Assembly (NCBI GenBank): GCA_028292765.1
Contig: JAQGLR010000298.1
Location: forward strand, 1-34,251
From: Massilia sp.
Lineage (GTDB): Bacteria > Pseudomonadota > Gammaproteobacteria > Burkholderiales > Burkholderiaceae_D
Direction: 5' to 3'
Length of the DNA: 34,251 nucleotides
Positions 4,697 to 27,006 of the stretch are shown here, piece after piece. The first letter of the stretch is position 1; each line of letters opens with the position of its first letter. Under the pieces are notes generated by a model. It was not told the origin of the DNA, did not search any database, and worked only from the letters and a program-made list of their open reading frames with translations. The translations under genes and the position numbers were made by a program.

Positions 4697-5062
4697 AACA
4701 CGCTTCTAATGTTGCGGCGTACATAGCCGACTTGCCGAGCAGAATTATAGGCCTGTTTCCCGGCCATGTAATTCGGTTTCGCGTCGGTATCGTACCCCTG
4801 TCATCGACTGCTTTCGAGTCCACACTCAGTGATATCAGGGCGGCCATTTGCGCTTCGACAAGGATTCACGCAATTTCCGTTACGGAAATCAATGCGGGAT
4901 GAATAATTGAGGGAAAGAGGGGCGATTCGCCGTCGTTTCCCCGTCTTTGCACAAAAAAAAGGCAATTCGAAAGAAACTACTAATCGTTGTTTGTTCGTCA
5001 GTATCTGTGGCTGGAAAGGTACATACAGCCCGCCTCTTGCTTGTTTTTTGCCTGCTCTTTGT

Positions 5063-5893
5063 TTACTGGCGCGCACCGCGCAGGTTGTGCGGACGCACGG
5101 TACTGAAATTGGTGCGCCACGGATTGATGTCGAGTCCGCCACGGCGCGTATAACGCGCATACACCGCCAGCTTGGTCGGTTTGCACTGGCGCAGGATGTC
5201 GATGAAGATCCGCTCGACACATTGTTCGTGAAATTCGTTGTGCTCGCGGAAACCGATCAGGTAGCGCAGCAAGCCTTCCTGGTCGATCTGCGGTCCCACG
5301 TAGTGAATCTGCACGCTGCCCCAGTCCGGCTGGCCGGTCACCAGGCAGTTCGATTTCAGCAGGTTCGACACCAGCGTTTCTTCGACCGGCGCCTCGTTCA
5401 GGTTCGCGCTCAACAGGTGCGGCGCCGGCGAATAGTCATCGATCTCGATGTCGAGGCGGTCGAGGGAATAGCCCTCGAGTTCGCCCATCTTCAGCTTGCC
5501 GAAGCTTTCCGGTTCAGTGAGCGTGATGTGCACCGGCGCACCAAAGGCGTTCGACAGGTCCTCGCGCAGCAGCGCCAGCAGGGCGTCGGGGCCGGCCACG
5601 CGCGTCTGGTTGAACGAGTTCAGGTAGAGCTTGAACGACTTCGACTCGACAATGTTCGGCGAATCGGCCGGCGCGCTGATGGTGGCGATCCCCACCTGCG
5701 GCTTGCCGCGCATGTTCAGCCACGACAACTCGTAGGCATTCCAGATGTCCAGGCCGAAGAAGGGCAGGGTGCCGGTGATGGCCAGTTCGTCGCGCTTTTG
5801 CTGGCGCGGGATCGGGAACAGCAACTCCGGCGCGTACTGGGTCTGGTAAGCGGAGGATTTGCCAAGTGGCGATTGATCGGGGGTATTGGTCAT
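5063..5893 (-). CDS. queF: NADPH-dependent 7-cyano-7-deazaguanine reductase QueF
   Basis: Motifs '[17 protein letters not shown]', '[26 protein letters not shown]' and '[14 protein letters not shown]'. Start taken at 5893. Confidence 0.96.
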
Positions 5894-5915
5894 GGTCTCG
5901 TCTCGATGAGCCGGC

Positions 5916-5946
5916 GCGCCGCCTTGGCGCGCCGCCAAGGCGGCGC
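5916..5946. promoter_or_regulatory. Strong hairpin in the ilvA-queF intergenic region, immediately upstream of queF
   Basis: GCGCCGCCTTGGCG-cgc-CGCCAAGGCGGCGC is a perfect 14-bp stem with a 3-nt loop and no T-run on the minus strand. Confidence 0.55.
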
Positions 5947-6067
5947 CTCGAAAGCCGGTCTGGCGGCGGCAAAGCGGCGTATCGTACACCTTTCCGGATC
6001 AGACTGCGCGTCGGGATCGCTTGCGGGACAGGCGGCGCTTGCAGCAGGACCTGGGGTGCTGCGGAAG

Positions 6068-7600
6068 TTACAGGAACAGCTTGTACACCGGATTGGCGCT
6101 CTCATCCCAATACCGGTACCCGAGTGTCGCCAGAAACTGCCGGAACTCATCCATCTCCCCGCCCGGCACCTGCAGCCCGACCAAAATGCGCCCCACATCC
6201 CCACCCTGGTTCCGATAGTGAAACAGCGAAATATTCCAGTTCGGCGCCATGCTGTCCAGGAAACGCATCAGCGCGCCGGGCCGCTCGGGGAACTCGAAGC
6301 GGTACAGCAGTTCGTCCTGCGCCAGTGCGCTTTTCCCGCCGACCAGGTGGCGGATGTGCAGCTTGGCCAGTTCGTCGTGCGTGAGGTCGAGCGTCGGGAA
6401 GTCGTGCTGCTCGAAGGTGCGCGCGAGCAGGCCGGACTCGCCGCGGCTGCCCACTTGCACGCCGACGAAAATATGGGCCTGGCGGGCGTCGCTGATGCGG
6501 TAGTTGAACTCGGTGACGTTGCGCGGTCCCACCAGCGAACAGAAGCGGCGAAAGCTGCCGCGCTGCTCGGGAATGGTCACCGCGAACACGGCTTCGCGCG
6601 CCTCGCCCAGTTCGGCGCGTTCGGCCACGAAACGCAGGCGGTCGAAATTCATGTTGGCGCCGCAGGCGACCGCCACCAGGGTCTCGCCCCGAATCGGCTG
6701 GCGCGCCATCTGGGAGCGCTCGACATACGCCTTGGCGCCCGCCACGGCCAGCGCGCCGGCCGGTTCCAGGATGCTGCGCGTGTCCTGGAACACGTCCTGG
6801 ATCGCGGCGCAAATCGCATCGGTGTCGACCAGGATGATCTCGTCGACCACCTCGCGCGCCACGCGGAAGGTCTCTTCCCCCACCAGGCGCACCGCGGTGC
6901 CGTCCGAGAACAGGCCGACGTCGGGCAGGGTGATGCGCTGGCCCGCCTTCAGGCTGCGCGCCATCGCGTCCGAATCAACGGTTTGCACGCCGATGATGCG
7001 GATGTCGGGCCGCACCGCTTTCACATAGGCGCCGATGCCCGAAATCAGCCCGCCACCGCCGATGGCAACGAAAATCGCGTGGATCGGCCCCGCGTGCTGG
7101 CGCAGGATTTCCATGCCGATCGTGCCCTGGCCGGCGATCACGTCGGGATCGTCGAACGGGTGCACGAACGTGAGTTTCTGTTCGCGCTCCAGCGTCAGGG
7201 CGTGCTGGTAGGCGTCGGTGTAGGAGTCGCCGTGCAGCACCACCTCGACCGCCGCGCCGCCGCGCGCCTTGACGGCGTCGATCTTCAGTTGCGGGGTGGT
7301 GGTCGGCATCACGATCAGCGCGCGGCAGCCGAGGCGGGCGGCGGACAGCGCCACGCCCTGCGCATGGTTGCCGGCCGAGGCGCAGATGACGCCGCGGGCC
7401 AGGGATTCGGGCGACAAATGCGCCATCTTGTTGTAGGCGCCGCGCAGCTTGAAGCTGAACACGCTCTGCATGTCTTCGCGCTTGAACCAGATGCGGTTGC
7501 CGAAGCGTTGCGACAGGGTCGGGGCCAGTTCGAGCGGGGTTTCGACGGCGACGTCGTAGACGCGGGCGGTCAGGATCTTCTTGAGGTAGTCAATGGTCAT
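6068..7600 (-). CDS. ilvA: Threonine ammonia-lyase, biosynthetic
   Basis: PLP motif 'SFKLRGAYNKMAHL', 'ASAGNHAQGVA', 'GGGGLISGIG', plus two C-terminal ACT-like regions. Start taken at 7600. Confidence 0.95.
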   Translation of the reverse strand: MTIDYLKKILTARVYDVAVETPLELAPTLSQRFGNRIWFKREDMQSVFSFKLRGAYNKMAHLSPESLARGVICASAGNHAQGVALSAARLGCRALIVMPTTTPQLKIDAVKARGGAAVEVVLHGDSYTDAYQHALTLEREQKLTFVHPFDDPDVIAGQGTIGMEILRQHAGPIHAIFVAIGGGGLISGIGAYVKAVRPDIRIIGVQTVDSDAMARSLKAGQRITLPDVGLFSDGTAVRLVGEETFRVAREVVDEIILVDTDAICAAIQDVFQDTRSILEPAGALAVAGAKAYVERSQMARQPIRGETLVAVACGANMNFDRLRFVAERAELGEAREAVFAVTIPEQRGSFRRFCSLVGPRNVTEFNYRISDARQAHIFVGVQVGSRGESGLLARTFEQHDFPTLDLTHDELAKLHIRHLVGGKSALAQDELLYRFEFPERPGALMRFLDSMAPNWNISLFHYRNQGGDVGRILVGLQVPGGEMDEFRQFLATLGYRYWDESANPVYKLFL

Positions 7601-7795
7601 GGTCGGCGCAAAAGCGGGAAAAAACGAAGTATGGTCGGCCAGTATCCTGGTTCCTGTGACGCGAGACTGTTTTCCCCAGTGGGTGACCGGGACCTGCAGT
7701 GCGATACGAGGCGCTGGGTTGCAGGCTCGTCGTATCGTGTCGGGGCGATGGGTTTTCCTCATTATAATAAACACCTCCCACTTTAAATTCCACCG

Positions 7796-20705: not shown

Positions 20706-21302
20706 ATGCCCGCGTTTTCCAGCCGCGATCCGCGCACCCCGGGCTTCTGGGACGAGCGCTTCGAACGGGGTTTTACGCCATGGGACCTGGGTGGCGTCCC
20801 GGCCGCCTTGCGCGATTTCACGGCACGGGTGGACGGGCCGAAGGCGGCTTTGATTCCGGGCTGCGGCAATGGCTATGAACTGGCCTGGCTGCTTGAAGCC
20901 GCCTGGGACGCGGTCGCCATCGATTTTTCGCCGGCCGCGGTCAGCCGTGCGAAGCAGGCGGCCGGCCCCTGGGCCGTGCGCGTCGTCGAAGCCGATTTTT
21001 TCTCCTGGGAGCCGCCGCGTCCGCTCGACCTGGTGTATGAGCGCGCTTTCCTGTGCGCGATGCCCCCAGCCATGTGGCCGCAGGTGGCGGCGCGCTGGGC
21101 GGCGCTGTTGCCGGCCGGTGGCTTGTTGGCGGGTTTCTTTTTCTTTGGCGAGTCCTTGAGGGGGCCGCCGTTCGGTATCCGTCGTGCCGACCTGGACGCG
21201 CTGCTGGCGCCGCATTTCGCGCTCATCGAGGAGGCCGGGGTCGCCGACTCGCTACCCGTCTTCGAAGGCAGGGAGCGCTGGATGGTCTGGCGCCGCCGCT
21301 AG
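20706..21302 (+). CDS. TPMT-family SAM-dependent methyltransferase
   Basis: 'FWDERFERGFTPWDLGGVP', 'ALIPGCGNGYELAWL', 'DLVYERAFLCAMPPAMW'. Confidence 0.9.
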   Translation: MPAFSSRDPRTPGFWDERFERGFTPWDLGGVPAALRDFTARVDGPKAALIPGCGNGYELAWLLEAAWDAVAIDFSPAAVSRAKQAAGPWAVRVVEADFFSWEPPRPLDLVYERAFLCAMPPAMWPQVAARWAALLPAGGLLAGFFFFGESLRGPPFGIRRADLDALLAPHFALIEEAGVADSLPVFEGRERWMVWRRR

Positions 21303-21303
21303 C

Positions 21304-21378
21304 CGGGATCACGACGTACGCGGCAGTGAGTGCGGCGGCCAGGGCCACGATGAGACGGCGGGCGAGTGTTGAGTTCAT
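21304..21378 (-). pseudogene. 5' remnant of a second immunity-like gene (N-terminal anchor only)
   Basis: Minus-strand translation MNSTLARRLIVALAAALTAAYVVIP. It aligns by eye over 25 residues (11 identical, no gaps) with the N-terminus of the 22055-21414 protein (MNAKRTRIFIVVVLAAITTAFLTIP), then runs into the 3' end of the methyltransferase gene. Confidence 0.6.
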
Positions 21379-21413
21379 TGCATTGGACGCATTCAATGTT
21401 CCAGATCGATCGA

Positions 21414-22055
21414 TTACTCACCGTCCCAGGCGTACCAGGATTTTTTTCCGATGCCGACGTCGATCAGGTAAAGCGCATCGTCCGCATCGTCGCAGTCTTC
21501 CACGCACTTAATGCGAAGCAGGGACCTGAGATTGCGCTTGGGGACGTTAAACCATTGGTCGCTCTGGGAGTAGCGCAACAGCTCGGCATGCAGCGCTTTT
21601 TGCCCTTCAGGGGACAGGTCGTACCACCCGTTCTGGTTTCCGACCCAGGGAACCCAGCCGCCGGCCTTGAAACGCTCCTGGACCTGTCCCAATACCTCGA
21701 CCGCTTCGGGAAAGCGCAGCGCCTCGAGCATGGGCGACGTCGAAATCGTCCCCAGCACCGCATCGTCAAAAGTAAGGGCGGCGAATTTCGTTGGCGGAAG
21801 CTCGAAGCCATGTCGCGGGTCGACGTATTTGATGATGACGGAAGGTTCGATGACGTCTATCGTGGCGAAACCCGTTTCACCGGTCGGCGGCACTCCATGG
21901 GCCCGAGCCGGATAGGTCGATCGCCTGACGACCTCGTCGTACGGCATATCCATATCGACGACCAGCACGGTCGGTTTCGGCGGGATCGTCAGGAACGCGG
22001 TCGTGATTGCAGCGAGCACGACCACAATGAAAATTCGAGTGCGTTTCGCATTCAT
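21414..22055 (-). CDS. Uncharacterised protein with single N-terminal membrane anchor; candidate immunity protein
   Basis: N-terminal TM 'RIFIVVVLAAITTAFLTI' without lipobox Cys. ATGA start/stop overlap with the upstream ORF in a PAAR cassette. Confidence 0.7.
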   Translation of the reverse strand: MNAKRTRIFIVVVLAAITTAFLTIPPKPTVLVVDMDMPYDEVVRRSTYPARAHGVPPTGETGFATIDVIEPSVIIKYVDPRHGFELPPTKFAALTFDDAVLGTISTSPMLEALRFPEAVEVLGQVQERFKAGGWVPWVGNQNGWYDLSPEGQKALHAELLRYSQSDQWFNVPKRNLRSLLRIKCVEDCDDADDALYLIDVGIGKKSWYAWDGE

Positions 22056-23083
22056 TGCACGCCCCCACCCCGATAGATGTCCCATATCGCCCGTTCGATC
22101 AAATACTTCTCACTGCCCTTCAACAGACGATCGAACTGCCCTGCCGTCCGTAGGGCGAAGGGCATGCGATCGTTCACATCCCACAGGCGGACCGTGGTCA
22201 ACTTCGGGAGCCAGCTGGTGAATTTTCCGTTGGCTTTGCATTGCGCCGACAAGGTCAGCTGGATCTCGGCGGCGCCACGAAGACGATGCACCCAGGCGAA
22301 CTGGTTCGCGTCCAGTGCCAGCCGGGTGTCTTTGTCGTCATAGATGATCTTTTGCAAGATATTGATCTGTTCATGCCGCGCCAAGTGTTCAACGCTCCTG
22401 ATTAAGTTGCCATTCTCGAGTGCCTCAAAGCCCCACAGAATTTCCGGGAACGGAAATCCGAACTCCAGCCGCTTCTTCGCCTCCTCCGGCCAAAGCACCT
22501 TGTCCTTGATCTCGCGCCGGTAATGCAGGCTCGTTTTCAATCCTTCGTAGCCACGCATCATGTAAAACCTGTGGAGCGGATAAATGTCGAGGAACAGGGA
22601 GAGGTTCCCGAGCGCGAGCTTGCCGTACATGGTGTACGCGCCGAGCGCTTCTCCCGTGCTGCCGACGTCCAGGAAGTCCGGATTGGCGACGATCCGGTCA
22701 TGTGCGGCCTGCAGCATCCCGGAGGCATGCAGCAGGCCGCAGCCCACCTGCTTGGAGGCGAAGGCGGCCAGGCCGGCCCACTGGAAGCGCTTGTCTTTTA
22801 TCCAGAGAAAGGCGTACGCCGCATTGATGCGCCGGTTGATGTCGTCCGGCCTTGTCAGGGGCTTGCCGGTCTTCGCGTCGGCCACCCACTGCTGCGCCTC
22901 CTGCTGGCAGCGCAGCCATACCGCCGCCGCATCGAGAATCTTGACGCGGACGTACTTGACCTCTTTCCCATCCCGCAAGGCAGGATAGACCTTGCACTCC
23001 GGCACCGGAGTGATATTGCAGTTCAGCGGGATGGTGTCGGTGCCGTGCGTGGTGAATGGGACGTTAAATGGACCCTTGGGCAT
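22052..23083 (-). CDS. Uncharacterised 343-aa protein in PAAR cassette; candidate T6SS cargo (faint DUF2515-like impression, unverified)
   Basis: Starts 7 nt after the PAAR stop and is coupled by ATGA to the downstream ORF. 'DINRRINAAYAFLWIKDKRFQWAGLAAFASKQVGCGLLHA' and 'LARHEQINILQKIIYDDKDTRLALDANQ'. Confidence 0.7.
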   Translation of the reverse strand: MPKGPFNVPFTTHGTDTIPLNCNITPVPECKVYPALRDGKEVKYVRVKILDAAAVWLRCQQEAQQWVADAKTGKPLTRPDDINRRINAAYAFLWIKDKRFQWAGLAAFASKQVGCGLLHASGMLQAAHDRIVANPDFLDVGSTGEALGAYTMYGKLALGNLSLFLDIYPLHRFYMMRGYEGLKTSLHYRREIKDKVLWPEEAKKRLEFGFPFPEILWGFEALENGNLIRSVEHLARHEQINILQKIIYDDKDTRLALDANQFAWVHRLRGAAEIQLTLSAQCKANGKFTSWLPKLTTVRLWDVNDRMPFALRTAGQFDRLLKGSEKYLIERAIWDIYRGGGVQ

Positions 23084-23090
23084 GCTGTGC

Positions 23091-23648
23091 TCAGGCGCCG
23101 GGCGCGGGGTCTGCTTCGACGTGCCACGCGATCAATGCGTCACGCTCCGCACTCGTCAGCGGCCGGGTGTAACCGTCGGCGTCGGTCACGCCCTCGATTT
23201 TGCGGCCGGGCAGTTCGAGGATGTAATGCCGGTGCCGGAAGGGCTGCTCGTTCGAGTCGCGGATCAGTTGCAGCGGCGCGGCATCCTGCTCGCTCCCGCT
23301 GGATGGCGTCCGGGAGGCAATGGCTTCGAGTGCCTCGTCGATACCCCCAGTGTCATCGATGAGCTGGTATTCGTGCTCCTGGTTCGCGATCAGGCGTGGC
23401 GGCGGGCTGCATCCGCACAGGCACAGGTCGTGTTCGAGGGCGAGTTGCTTGCCGTCGCAAGTGTCGTCGAGGCGCGGCGCGACGCATTGGATGATCCCTT
23501 GCTTCCCGCAGCCCGGACAGTCGAGCAGATCGCCCTCCAGGGCGTAAGGAACGTCGTCGCAGGACATGAACGAGCCGGCTGTCTTGACCGTGCCGCCGGC
23601 CGTCGATTTGGCGCCAAGCAAAATCAGATAGCGTTTGAACATGGACAT
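23091..23648 (-). CDS. PAAR domain-containing protein with ~90-aa C-terminal extension
   Basis: 'KRYLILLGAKSTAGGTVKTAGSFMSCDDVPYALEGDLLDCPGCGKQGIIQCVAPRLDDTCDGKQLALEHDLCLCGCSPPPRLIANQ' matches the PAAR pattern of T6SS spike-tip proteins. Confidence 0.9.
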   Translation of the reverse strand: MSMFKRYLILLGAKSTAGGTVKTAGSFMSCDDVPYALEGDLLDCPGCGKQGIIQCVAPRLDDTCDGKQLALEHDLCLCGCSPPPRLIANQEHEYQLIDDTGGIDEALEAIASRTPSSGSEQDAAPLQLIRDSNEQPFRHRHYILELPGRKIEGVTDADGYTRPLTSAERDALIAWHVEADPAPGA

Positions 23649-23732: not shown

Positions 23733-23757
23733 AAAAAAAATGCCCGCATGCGCGGGC
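23733..23757 (-). terminator. Minus-strand intrinsic terminator with no obvious upstream gene
   Basis: On the minus strand GCCCGC-gcat-GCGGGC-A-TTTTTTTT, located in the divergent PAAR/fmdB intergenic region. Confidence 0.75.
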
Positions 23758-24078: not shown

Positions 24079-24432
24079 ATGCCGATTTATGCTTACCGCT
24101 GCGACGAATGCGGTTTTTCCAAAGATGTACTGCAAAAAATTTCCGACCCGGTCCTCACCGATTGCCTGTCATGCGGCAAGAGCGCTTTCAAGAAGCAGGT
24201 GACCGCCGCCGGTTTCCAGCTCAAGGGCAGCGGCTGGTACGTGACCGATTTCCGTGGCGGCAAAGCGCCGGCCGGCGCTCCGACGGCGGCGACCGCTGCG
24301 GCGCCTGCCGCCGGAACCTCGTCCGAGGCAGGTGCGACGGCGACCGTGCCGGCTGCCGCCTCGCCCTCGGCCGATGCCGGCAAGAGCGCCGCTCCAGCCG
24401 CTGCATCTGGCGGCGACAAGAGCGCGTCCTGA
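24079..24432 (+). CDS. FmdB family zinc ribbon protein
   Basis: 'MPIYAYRCDECGFSKDVLQK...DCLSCGKSAFKKQVTAAGFQLKGSGWYVTDF', then an Ala-rich tail. Confidence 0.94.
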   Translation: MPIYAYRCDECGFSKDVLQKISDPVLTDCLSCGKSAFKKQVTAAGFQLKGSGWYVTDFRGGKAPAGAPTAATAAAPAAGTSSEAGATATVPAAASPSADAGKSAAPAAASGGDKSAS

Positions 24433-24486: not shown

Positions 24487-25131
24487 ATGCGCAAATACTT
24501 CCTCACCGGCCTCCTGATCCTGGTTCCCCTGGCGATCACGGGCTGGGTCCTGAACCTGGTCATCGGCATGCTCGACCAGTCGCTGCTGTTCGTGCCCGAG
24601 CGCTGGCAGCCGCGCAACCTGATCGGCATGGACGTTCCCGGCGTCGGTGCGATCCTGACGATCGCCATCGTCTTCCTCACCGGCTTGCTGACAAATAACC
24701 TGGTCGGCAAATGGGTCGTGCGCGTCGGCGAACGCCTGCTCAAGCGCATTCCCGTGGTCAGCTCGCTCTACGGCAGCGTGAAGCAGGTATCCGATACCCT
24801 GTTTTCGTCTTCCGGCAACGCTTTCCGCCAGGCGGTGCTGATCCCGTACCCGCATGCCGATTCGTACACCATCGCGTTCCTGACCGGCGTGCCCGGCGGC
24901 GACGTGAAGAACCACCTGGTCGGCGACTACCTGAGCGTCTACGTGCCGACGACCCCGAACCCGACCTCCGGCTTTTTCCTGATGATGGAACGCAGCAAGG
25001 TCGTCGAGCTGAACATGACGGTCGATGCGGCGCTGAAATACATCGTGTCGATGGGCGTCGTGGCGCCGGGCGATACCGCGCCGGGCGTTGTGAAGCAGGG
25101 CGAAGCCCCGGGCCTCATCCTCACGCCCTGA
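24487..25131 (+). CDS. DUF502 family membrane protein
   Basis: 'MRKYFLTGLLILVPLAITGWVLNLVIGMLDQ...IPVVSSLYGSVKQVSDTLF...VPTTPNPTSGFFLMM'. Confidence 0.94.
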   Translation: MRKYFLTGLLILVPLAITGWVLNLVIGMLDQSLLFVPERWQPRNLIGMDVPGVGAILTIAIVFLTGLLTNNLVGKWVVRVGERLLKRIPVVSSLYGSVKQVSDTLFSSSGNAFRQAVLIPYPHADSYTIAFLTGVPGGDVKNHLVGDYLSVYVPTTPNPTSGFFLMMERSKVVELNMTVDAALKYIVSMGVVAPGDTAPGVVKQGEAPGLILTP

Positions 25132-25203: not shown

Positions 25204-27006
25204 ATGTCCTCCATGCGTACTCACTACTGCGGCCTCGTCACCGAAGAACTGCTGGGCCAAACCGTCAGCCTGTGCGGCTGGGTCCACCGCCGCCGCGACC
25301 ACGGCGGGGTGATCTTCATCGACCTGCGCGACCGTGAAGGCCTGGTGCAGGTGGTCTGCCACCCGGACAATGCCGACGTGTTCAAGGCCGCCGAGCATGT
25401 GCGCAACGAGTACTGCCTGCGCATCACCGGCACCATTGCCAACCGCCTCGAAGGCACGGTCAATGCCAACCTGAAGTCGGGCAAGATCGAACTGAACGCC
25501 ACCTCGCTGGAAGTGCTGAACCCGTCGGTGCCGGTGCCGTTCCAGCTGGACGACGACAACCTGTCGGAAACCACCCGCCTGACGCACCGCGTGCTCGACC
25601 TGCGCCGCGGCCAGATGCAGCACAACCTGCGCCTGCGTTATAAAGTGTCGATGGAAGTGCGCAAGTACCTCGACAACCTGGGCTTCATCGATATCGAAAC
25701 CCCGATGCTGACCAAGTCGACCCCGGAAGGCGCGCGCGACTACCTGGTGCCGTCGCGCGTCAATCCAGGCAACTTCTTCGCGCTGCCGCAATCGCCACAG
25801 CTGTTCAAGCAGCTGCTGATGGTCGCGAACTTCGACCGTTACTACCAGATCACCAAGTGCTTCCGCGACGAAGACCTGCGCGCCGACCGCCAGCCGGAAT
25901 TCACCCAGATCGACTGCGAAACCTCGTTCCTGACCGAGCAGGAAATCCGTGACCTGTTCGAAGACATGATGCGCGTCGTCTTCAAGAACGCCGCCGGCAT
26001 CGACCTGCCGAACCCGTTCCCGGTGATGGATTTCGCCACCGCCATGGGCATGTATGGTTCGGACAAGCCGGACATGCGCGTGAAACTCGAGTTCACCGAA
26101 CTGACCGAACTGATGAAGTCGGTCGAGTTCAAGGTCTTCAACAGCGCCGCCAACATGACGGGCGGGCGCGTGGTCGGCATGCGCGTGCCGCAAGGCGGCT
26201 CGATGCCGCGTTCGGAAATCGACGCCTACACCCAGTTCGTCGCCATCTACGGCGCCAAGGGCCTGGCTTACATCAAGGTCAACGAAAAGGCGAAGGGCCG
26301 TGACGGCCTGCAGTCGCCGATCGTCAAGAACCTCTCGGACGACGTCCTGGCCCAGATCCTCGAGCTGACGGGCGCGCAGGATGGCGACCTGATCTTCTTC
26401 GGCGCCGACAAGGCGAAAGTCGTCAACGACGCCATCGGCGCGCTGCGCGTGAAGATCGGCCACTCGGAATTCGCGAAAAAGGCCGGCCTGTTCGAGGAAA
26501 CCTGGGCGCCGCTGTGGGTCATCGACTTCCCGATGTTCGAGCACGACGAAGAAAACAACCGCTGGACCGCGACCCACCACCCGTTCACCGCACCAAAAGA
26601 CGGCCACGAGGACATGCTGGAAACCAATCCGGGCGCCTGCATCGCCAAGGCCTACGACATGGTCCTGAACGGCTGGGAGCTGGGTGGCGGCTCGATCCGT
26701 ATCCACCGCGAAGAAGTGCAGAGCAAGGTGTTCCGCGCACTGAAGATCGATGCCGAAGAAGCGCAATTGAAATTCGGCTTCCTGCTCGACGCCCTGCAGT
26801 ACGGCGCGCCGCCGCACGGTGGCCTGGCCTTCGGCCTGGACCGCCTGGTCACCCTGATGACCGGCTCGGAATCGATCCGCGACGTGATCGCCTTCCCGAA
26901 GACCCAGCGCGCGCAAGACCTGCTGACCAACGCGCCGTCGGAAGTGGACGAGAAGCAGCTCAAGGAGCTGCACATCCGCCTGCGTAACGAGCCGAAGGTA
27001 GCTTAA
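25204..27006 (+). CDS. aspS: Aspartate--tRNA ligase
   Basis: 600 aa. OB-fold '[31 protein letters not shown]', class II motif 2 '[18 protein letters not shown]', motif 3 '[14 protein letters not shown]'. Confidence 0.98.

Follow-up and report, generated by a model that had tools for sequence, protein, structure and literature searches.

What is encoded by a compact three-gene cassette that lies among the housekeeping genes of a Massilia genome and begins with a gene for a PAAR spike-tip protein? The 34,251-nucleotide stretch of DNA that was analyzed (hereafter the window) carries three tightly packed open reading frames (ORFs) on its minus strand, namely a PAAR gene of 185 codons (23091-23648), an ORF of 343 codons (22052-23083) and an ORF of 213 codons (21414-22055). 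Only 7 nt separate the PAAR stop from the ATG of the second ORF, and an ATGA at 22052-22055 is common to the second and the third, which thus overlap; a longer in-frame start of the third ORF is possible and would make a protein of 223 aa. The original prediction had read this arrangement as an orphan effector island, in which the 343-aa protein is a PAAR-delivered effector of unrecognized activity and the 213-aa protein its anchored immunity partner. The packing, coordinates and strands on which it rested were confirmed, as was the position of the cassette between a methyltransferase gene and the fmdB-DUF502-aspS genes. According to Pfam, the former is a TPMT-type methyltransferase gene (20706-21302, plus strand) preceded by a UbiB/ABC1 gene, and the latter, likewise on the plus strand, encode an FmdB-type Zn ribbon (24079-24432), a DUF502 protein (ending at 25131) and AspS (25204-27006).

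The spacing between the methyltransferase and fmdB genes is 2776 bp in the window versus 324-711 bp in 9 of 12 re-fetched relatives from the genus; two of the remaining three (G434 and G428) have unrelated insertions at the same site, and in the third the contig ends there. The short gap in most relatives and the unrelated insertions in two of them show that this site between housekeeping genes is variable and that the insertion of the cassette is specific to its lineage. As each of the three ORFs has conserved homologues whose order is kept in many genomes, the arrangement is far beyond chance. A 79-bp segment at 21300-21378 (minus strand), truncated at the methyltransferase gene, aligns to the 5' end of the proposed immunity gene with 66% identity (score 63.5; the best of 300 shuffles scored 49.5), and in view of this remnant the cassette probably once contained a second immunity copy. 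No tRNA was found within the window. A terminator-like GC-rich hairpin with a T-run (23742-23757, minus strand) lies on the strand of the PAAR gene, about 95 nt ahead of its start. It would keep transcription that arrives from upstream out of the cassette; terminator-like hairpins are no more numerous in the region than in shuffles. Elsewhere in the window, a mechanically called ORF of 959 codons (4907-7786, plus strand) has no Pfam match and may be a non-coding frame.

The first protein is a PAAR protein, as had been predicted, with the Pfam PAAR_motif (PF05488, E 1.8e-10) over residues 12-81 (23406-23615, minus strand); in a PHROGs scan it also matches an unnamed phrog. The 343-aa protein belongs to the DUF2515 family (PF10720; residues 83-332, E 2.8e-44, 152.1 bits against a curated cut-off of 24.3). 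DUF2515 is a family without a described function, and searches with DUF2515, PF10720, YppC and the conserved motif returned nothing relevant from a literature whose coverage was partial, such that an earlier mention elsewhere is possible. The cargo that the original prediction listed as unknown hence bears a family name. The 213-aa protein has no Pfam match, and scans of NCBIfam, PHROGs and PADLOC returned no family for either of these two proteins. In the profile search DUF2515 was also recovered, as a control match, from Bacillus subtilis, which to our knowledge lacks a T6SS; therefore membership in the family is by itself no proof of a T6SS role.

In all, 256 relatives of the DUF2515 protein were confirmed by a scan of genome contigs and 80 were retained, with mechanical gene calls in their loci. 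They come from Massilia, Duganella, Pseudoduganella, Rugamonas, Burkholderia, Paraburkholderia, Caballeronia, Pandoraea, Xenorhabdus and Pseudomonas, the closest being that of Massilia sp. IC2-278 (76%), to whose group the host of the window therefore probably belongs. Because the patterns used to choose them came from an alignment with the window sequence in the lead, the sample is biased toward its subfamily. In 73 of the 80 newly fetched loci, a profile made from five proteins (that of the window plus four from three loci of the genome search) detects a homologue of the 213-aa protein immediately after DUF2515, with the exact ATGA overlap in 62. One of the other seven loci stops at a contig edge, and six, namely five from Massilia (L066, L074, L083, L090 and L107) and a Pseudomonas fusion (L122), have no recognizable adjacent immunity gene, with the core residues of DUF2515 intact. 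Extra immunity copies are present in 18 of the 80 loci. C-terminal fragments of DUF2515 also occur in these loci, seven in all; two of them are at contig ends, and the other five adjoin immunity copies or lie between them. In four loci (L103, L110, L121 and L123) immunity arrays downstream of the main fusion are interspersed with C-terminal DUF2515 fragments of 67-134 aa, an organization that resembles orphan toxin-tail modules. The immunity proteins are more variable than the toxins, with a mean column identity of 34% versus 51%. One of the immunity-less genes, that of Massilia solisilvae (L074), is divergent from an Hcp-like ORF (7262-7756, minus strand) followed by an ORF resembling murein endopeptidase effectors (6728-7252, minus strand), both recognized by eye.

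The proposed immunity protein reaches its hydropathy maximum (2.31) at residue 8, and its AlphaFold2 model (pLDDT 93.9) consists of a helix at residues 3-22 followed by an alpha/beta domain. It is accordingly predicted to have one N-terminal transmembrane helix (3-22) and an exported alpha/beta domain, and this topology, together with the pairing in 73 loci, supports the suggestion of an anchored immunity protein. Foldseek comparison of the model with the PDB gave nothing at E<=0.001; the weak matches to MTC28 and TiME lie above that threshold and were set aside. Profiles of the immunity family returned nothing from a PDB sequence search except one non-significant match of the subfamily-B profile. 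Most immunity homologues share a single N-terminal hydrophobic segment, and several from subfamily B have lipoprotein-like (lipobox-like) starts; profile comparison by hhalign relates the immunity families of subfamilies A and B to each other (probability 84-86, E about 6e-6 to 8e-6). Given the predicted membrane anchor and exported domain, and the lipoprotein starts in the sister subfamily, the toxin should act in the periplasm, a placement that we regard as likely.

The AlphaFold2 model of the DUF2515 protein (pLDDT 93.3, pTM 0.90) is almost entirely helical and includes helices 33 and 56 residues long. The HMM search and structure prediction that had been suggested for this ORF thus yielded a named family and a confident all-helical model, for which Foldseek found no relative in the PDB or BFVD at E<=0.001; a PDB search with the toxin sequence profile was likewise empty. 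Conservation points to several candidate functional residues: N160 (codon 22604-22606), D166 (22586-22588) and H171 (22571-22573) on the long helix 140-195, and H237-E238-Q239 (22367-22375) on helix 227-248, all on the minus strand. N160, E238, Q239 and R306 are invariant in 70 of 70 aligned family members, as is H171, whereas D166 is found in 69 (E in one) and H237 in 68. C115 and C282 are co-present in 68 of the 70 sequences, which suggests a probable disulfide between them; both are absent from two copies from viral contigs, and this joint loss counts as one event because these copies are near-identical. In a distant homologue (L158), K111, H171 and H237 are not conserved, as judged by eye, whereas the two cysteines and N160, D166, E238 and Q239 are. 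The conserved residues of the two long helices are read as a polar functional site. Viral-contig scans recovered three near-identical DUF2515 copies of low identity and nothing further, and plasmid searches found no DUF2515 relatives. The viral-contig copies (L128 and L129, both at 5719-6930; L130, 1881-3092) are start-truncated and lie beside an integrase-like ORF; they lack both conserved cysteines and have Q in place of H237.

The leading single guess at the activity, a narrower version of the explanation favored here, is that the toxin is a peptidoglycan hydrolase or another glycan-cleaving enzyme with D166 and E238 as its Asp/Glu pair. Such an enzyme would suit a periplasmic immunity protein and a pair of long helices that carry two invariant or nearly invariant acidic residues as well as an invariant N and an invariant Q, and alpha-rich muramidase-like enzymes are common among T6SS effectors; against it, neither sequence nor fold searches revealed similarity to lysozyme-like or any other hydrolase family or fold, and we consider this guess possible while still improbable on balance. 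Less probable again is that the toxin forms pores, its long helices entering the inner membrane from the periplasm. The all-helical model with its helices of 33 and 56 residues and an immunity protein predicted to be anchored in the inner membrane are what a pore-former would lead one to expect, yet the effector has no transmembrane-like segment (the maximum 19-residue hydropathy is 0.97, and about 0.9-1.4 in sampled relatives), it carries conserved charged and polar residues mid-helix, and its immunity protein is a single-anchor protein with a soluble domain, or a lipoprotein, rather than a multi-pass protein. It is the lack of hydrophobic segments in the effector that lowers this reading, and an enzymatic toxin is moderately favored over a pore-forming one.

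DUF2515 tends to co-occur with the T6SS. DUF2515 above the cut-off was found in 12 of 399 genomes of the order, and TssC in 10 of these 12 as against 94 of the 399 overall (hypergeometric P 1.5e-5, a value that ignores kinship); across the phylum DUF2515 is rare (2 of 399 genomes, one being the window's own). In two DUF2515 genomes of the order TssC was not found, one being the incomplete assembly from which the window comes and the other G003. In the former, TssC is probably missing because the assembly is only 84.6% complete and split into 520 contigs; the same genome contains TssK with a neighboring PAAR gene, TssF-like and TssG-like ORFs recognized by eye (L159) and at least seven VgrG genes. 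For this reason the cassette, taken to be an orphan effector island from its immediate surroundings, is probably an orphan only locally. G003, whose genome is complete, has neither VgrG nor TssC and nevertheless encodes DUF2515, immunity and PAAR proteins. In its locus (L026, G003:C1, 7040-10210) DUF2515 is accompanied by an immunity gene in duplicate and by PAAR in divergent orientation; this cassette is possibly a relic or put to a defense use. It might be argued from G003, from the failure to find TssC in the window's own assembly and from the truncated second immunity copy that the window cassette too is a non-functional leftover of a genome that has lost its T6SS. All three of its ORFs are intact, however, and the T6SS genes still encoded in so incomplete an assembly make a leftover distinctly unlikely.

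The gene architectures of the relatives link DUF2515 directly to the spike. PAAR, DUF2515 and immunity are encoded as separate genes, as in the window, in 27-29 loci, depending on the length cut. In Pseudomonas, PAAR and DUF2515 are fused in a single protein (L117, L112 and L115), and the PAAR of the window shares 45% identity over 100 aa with the N-terminus of the first of these; a fusion of a PAAR tail to DUF2515 is found in Duganella radicis (L062). In subfamily B a VgrG gene stands directly before DUF2515 (L024, L027, L028, L030 and L035 have VgrG followed by DUF2515), in some cases next to TssK. A Xenorhabdus locus (L060) has the order TssF, VgrG, DUF4123, a small transthyretin (TTR)-like protein, DUF2515 and immunity. 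In the distant locus L158 a Tox-PAAR-like::DUF2515 fusion comes after VgrG and DUF2169; the protein encoded next, of 295 aa, has a hydrophobic segment at its N-terminus and resembles the immunity profiles only weakly. In about half of the relatives neither PAAR nor VgrG is directly adjacent; the DUF2515-immunity pairs without a directly adjacent spike gene are mostly from Pseudomonas. The neighborhood survey that had been proposed as a check thus favored the prediction in the immunity partner and in the T6SS co-occurrence, but did not show a spike gene throughout. Taken together, the fusions, the VgrG, DUF4123 and DUF2169 neighborhoods and the co-occurrence support the view that the DUF2515 protein is an effector delivered with the PAAR protein, and we hold it to be very likely a T6SS-delivered effector with a cognate immunity protein. 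That it is instead an accessory or structural spike protein (an adaptor or chaperone), with the 213-aa protein as a partner in spike assembly, would agree with its place beside PAAR, VgrG and DUF4123 and with a family lacking a described activity, but is very improbable in view of its fusion to the PAAR C-terminus, the usual effector position, of tandem immunity copies and orphan C-terminal fragments that typify effector-immunity loci rather than adaptors, and of an exported membrane-anchored partner that fits poorly with a cytoplasmic adaptor.

How the effector might be held by the spike is suggested by the C-terminus of the PAAR protein, where profile matches revealed a TTR-like tail (residues about 124-177; 23118-23279, minus strand). 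This tail of about 55 residues recurs at the ends of different PAAR types that precede DUF2515, forms a separate small protein of 77-78 aa in Xenorhabdus and is carried by one VgrG (L027); the E-values of the local profile scans behind this recurrence and the neighbor architectures refer to small sequence sets. It also ends a 165-aa protein encoded downstream of the DUF2515-immunity pair in several Pseudomonas cassettes (L088:10317-10814 and its equivalents in other Pseudomonas loci), which is possibly a separate loading factor. The best PDB matches of a mixed tail profile are to C-terminal regions of the EAEC VgrG (6sjl, E 3.3e-6) and of P. aeruginosa VgrG2b (6h56, E 1.3e-8); a profile of only the seven window-type PAAR tails gives E 0.0026 and 0.0044, respectively, and the window tail alone, as a single-sequence query against the PDB, gave no match. 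TTR-like tails of VgrG proteins select and stabilize cargo (PMC6684961), and in EAEC the N-terminal strand of Tle1 complements the TTR of VgrG (PMC10715212). The PAAR tail is thus a probable docking site for the DUF2515 protein. On the side of the effector, BLASTP aligns the window DUF2515 protein with the L117 fusion (40% identity) only from residue 55 onward, and residues 1-55 (22919-23083, minus strand), modeled by AlphaFold2 as a short helix and a beta-hairpin, are therefore a candidate docking segment.

From the gene order, families, fusions, pairing, co-occurrence and predicted topology established here, we infer the following course for secretion, docking, toxicity and neutralization. 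The PAAR protein would cap a VgrG spike encoded elsewhere in the genome, and its TTR-like tail would hold the DUF2515 protein, probably via the N-terminal segment of the latter. Upon firing, the DUF2515 protein would reach the envelope of a neighboring bacterium, where it would act as a soluble, all-helical periplasmic toxin, most likely an enzyme that attacks an envelope component, with the conserved N160, D166, E238 and Q239 on its two long helices and a probable C115-C282 disulfide. The 213-aa protein, with one helix in the inner membrane and its folded domain in the periplasm, would bind and block toxin arriving from sister cells. As a whole, this account of a PAAR-delivered T6SS cargo cassette with a periplasmic DUF2515 toxin and an anchored immunity protein is likely the correct one.

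Several known systems offer parallels. In EAEC VgrG1-TTR/Tle1 and P. aeruginosa VgrG4b/VgrG5-PldA/PldB a spike-borne TTR-like tail is likewise found beside genes for a cargo effector and its immunity protein, and the EAEC VgrG tail is itself matched by the PAAR-tail profile; here, in contrast, the tail resides on PAAR or on a separate small protein and not on VgrG alone, and the cargo is DUF2515, which is unrelated to phospholipases. Specialized PAAR effectors with C-terminal toxin domains, such as the Pantoea PAAR-ARC toxin (PMC12605009) and the colicin M-like DUF3289 (PMC11148199), share the succession of PAAR, toxin and immediately downstream immunity, and the Pseudomonas relatives have this fused form, whereas the window encodes PAAR and toxin separately and the toxin fold is without a solved match. 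The PF10720 member of Bacillus subtilis is of the same sequence family as the window toxin; unlike it, whose host is not known to have a T6SS, the Pseudomonadota members analyzed here are tied to T6SS tips and immunity proteins.

On this evidence, DUF2515 would add a new family of toxins to a kind of system that is already known. The analysis proposes a testable role for a family without a described function and names its cognate immunity superfamily, which previously had no Pfam model. A single docking module appears to have been reused in PAAR-borne, VgrG-borne and free-standing forms, and the confident toxin model without a PDB relative suggests that the fold of the toxin, and perhaps its target as well, is new. 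It is conceivable, at somewhat less than even chances, that DUF2515 represents a new class of envelope-targeting antibacterial toxin, which would combine a previously unseen all-helical fold and an activity new among T6SS effectors with an immunity superfamily of its own, membrane-anchored or lipoprotein in form, and with loading through a TTR-like docking module that is interchangeable, whether borne by PAAR, by VgrG or by a small protein of its own.
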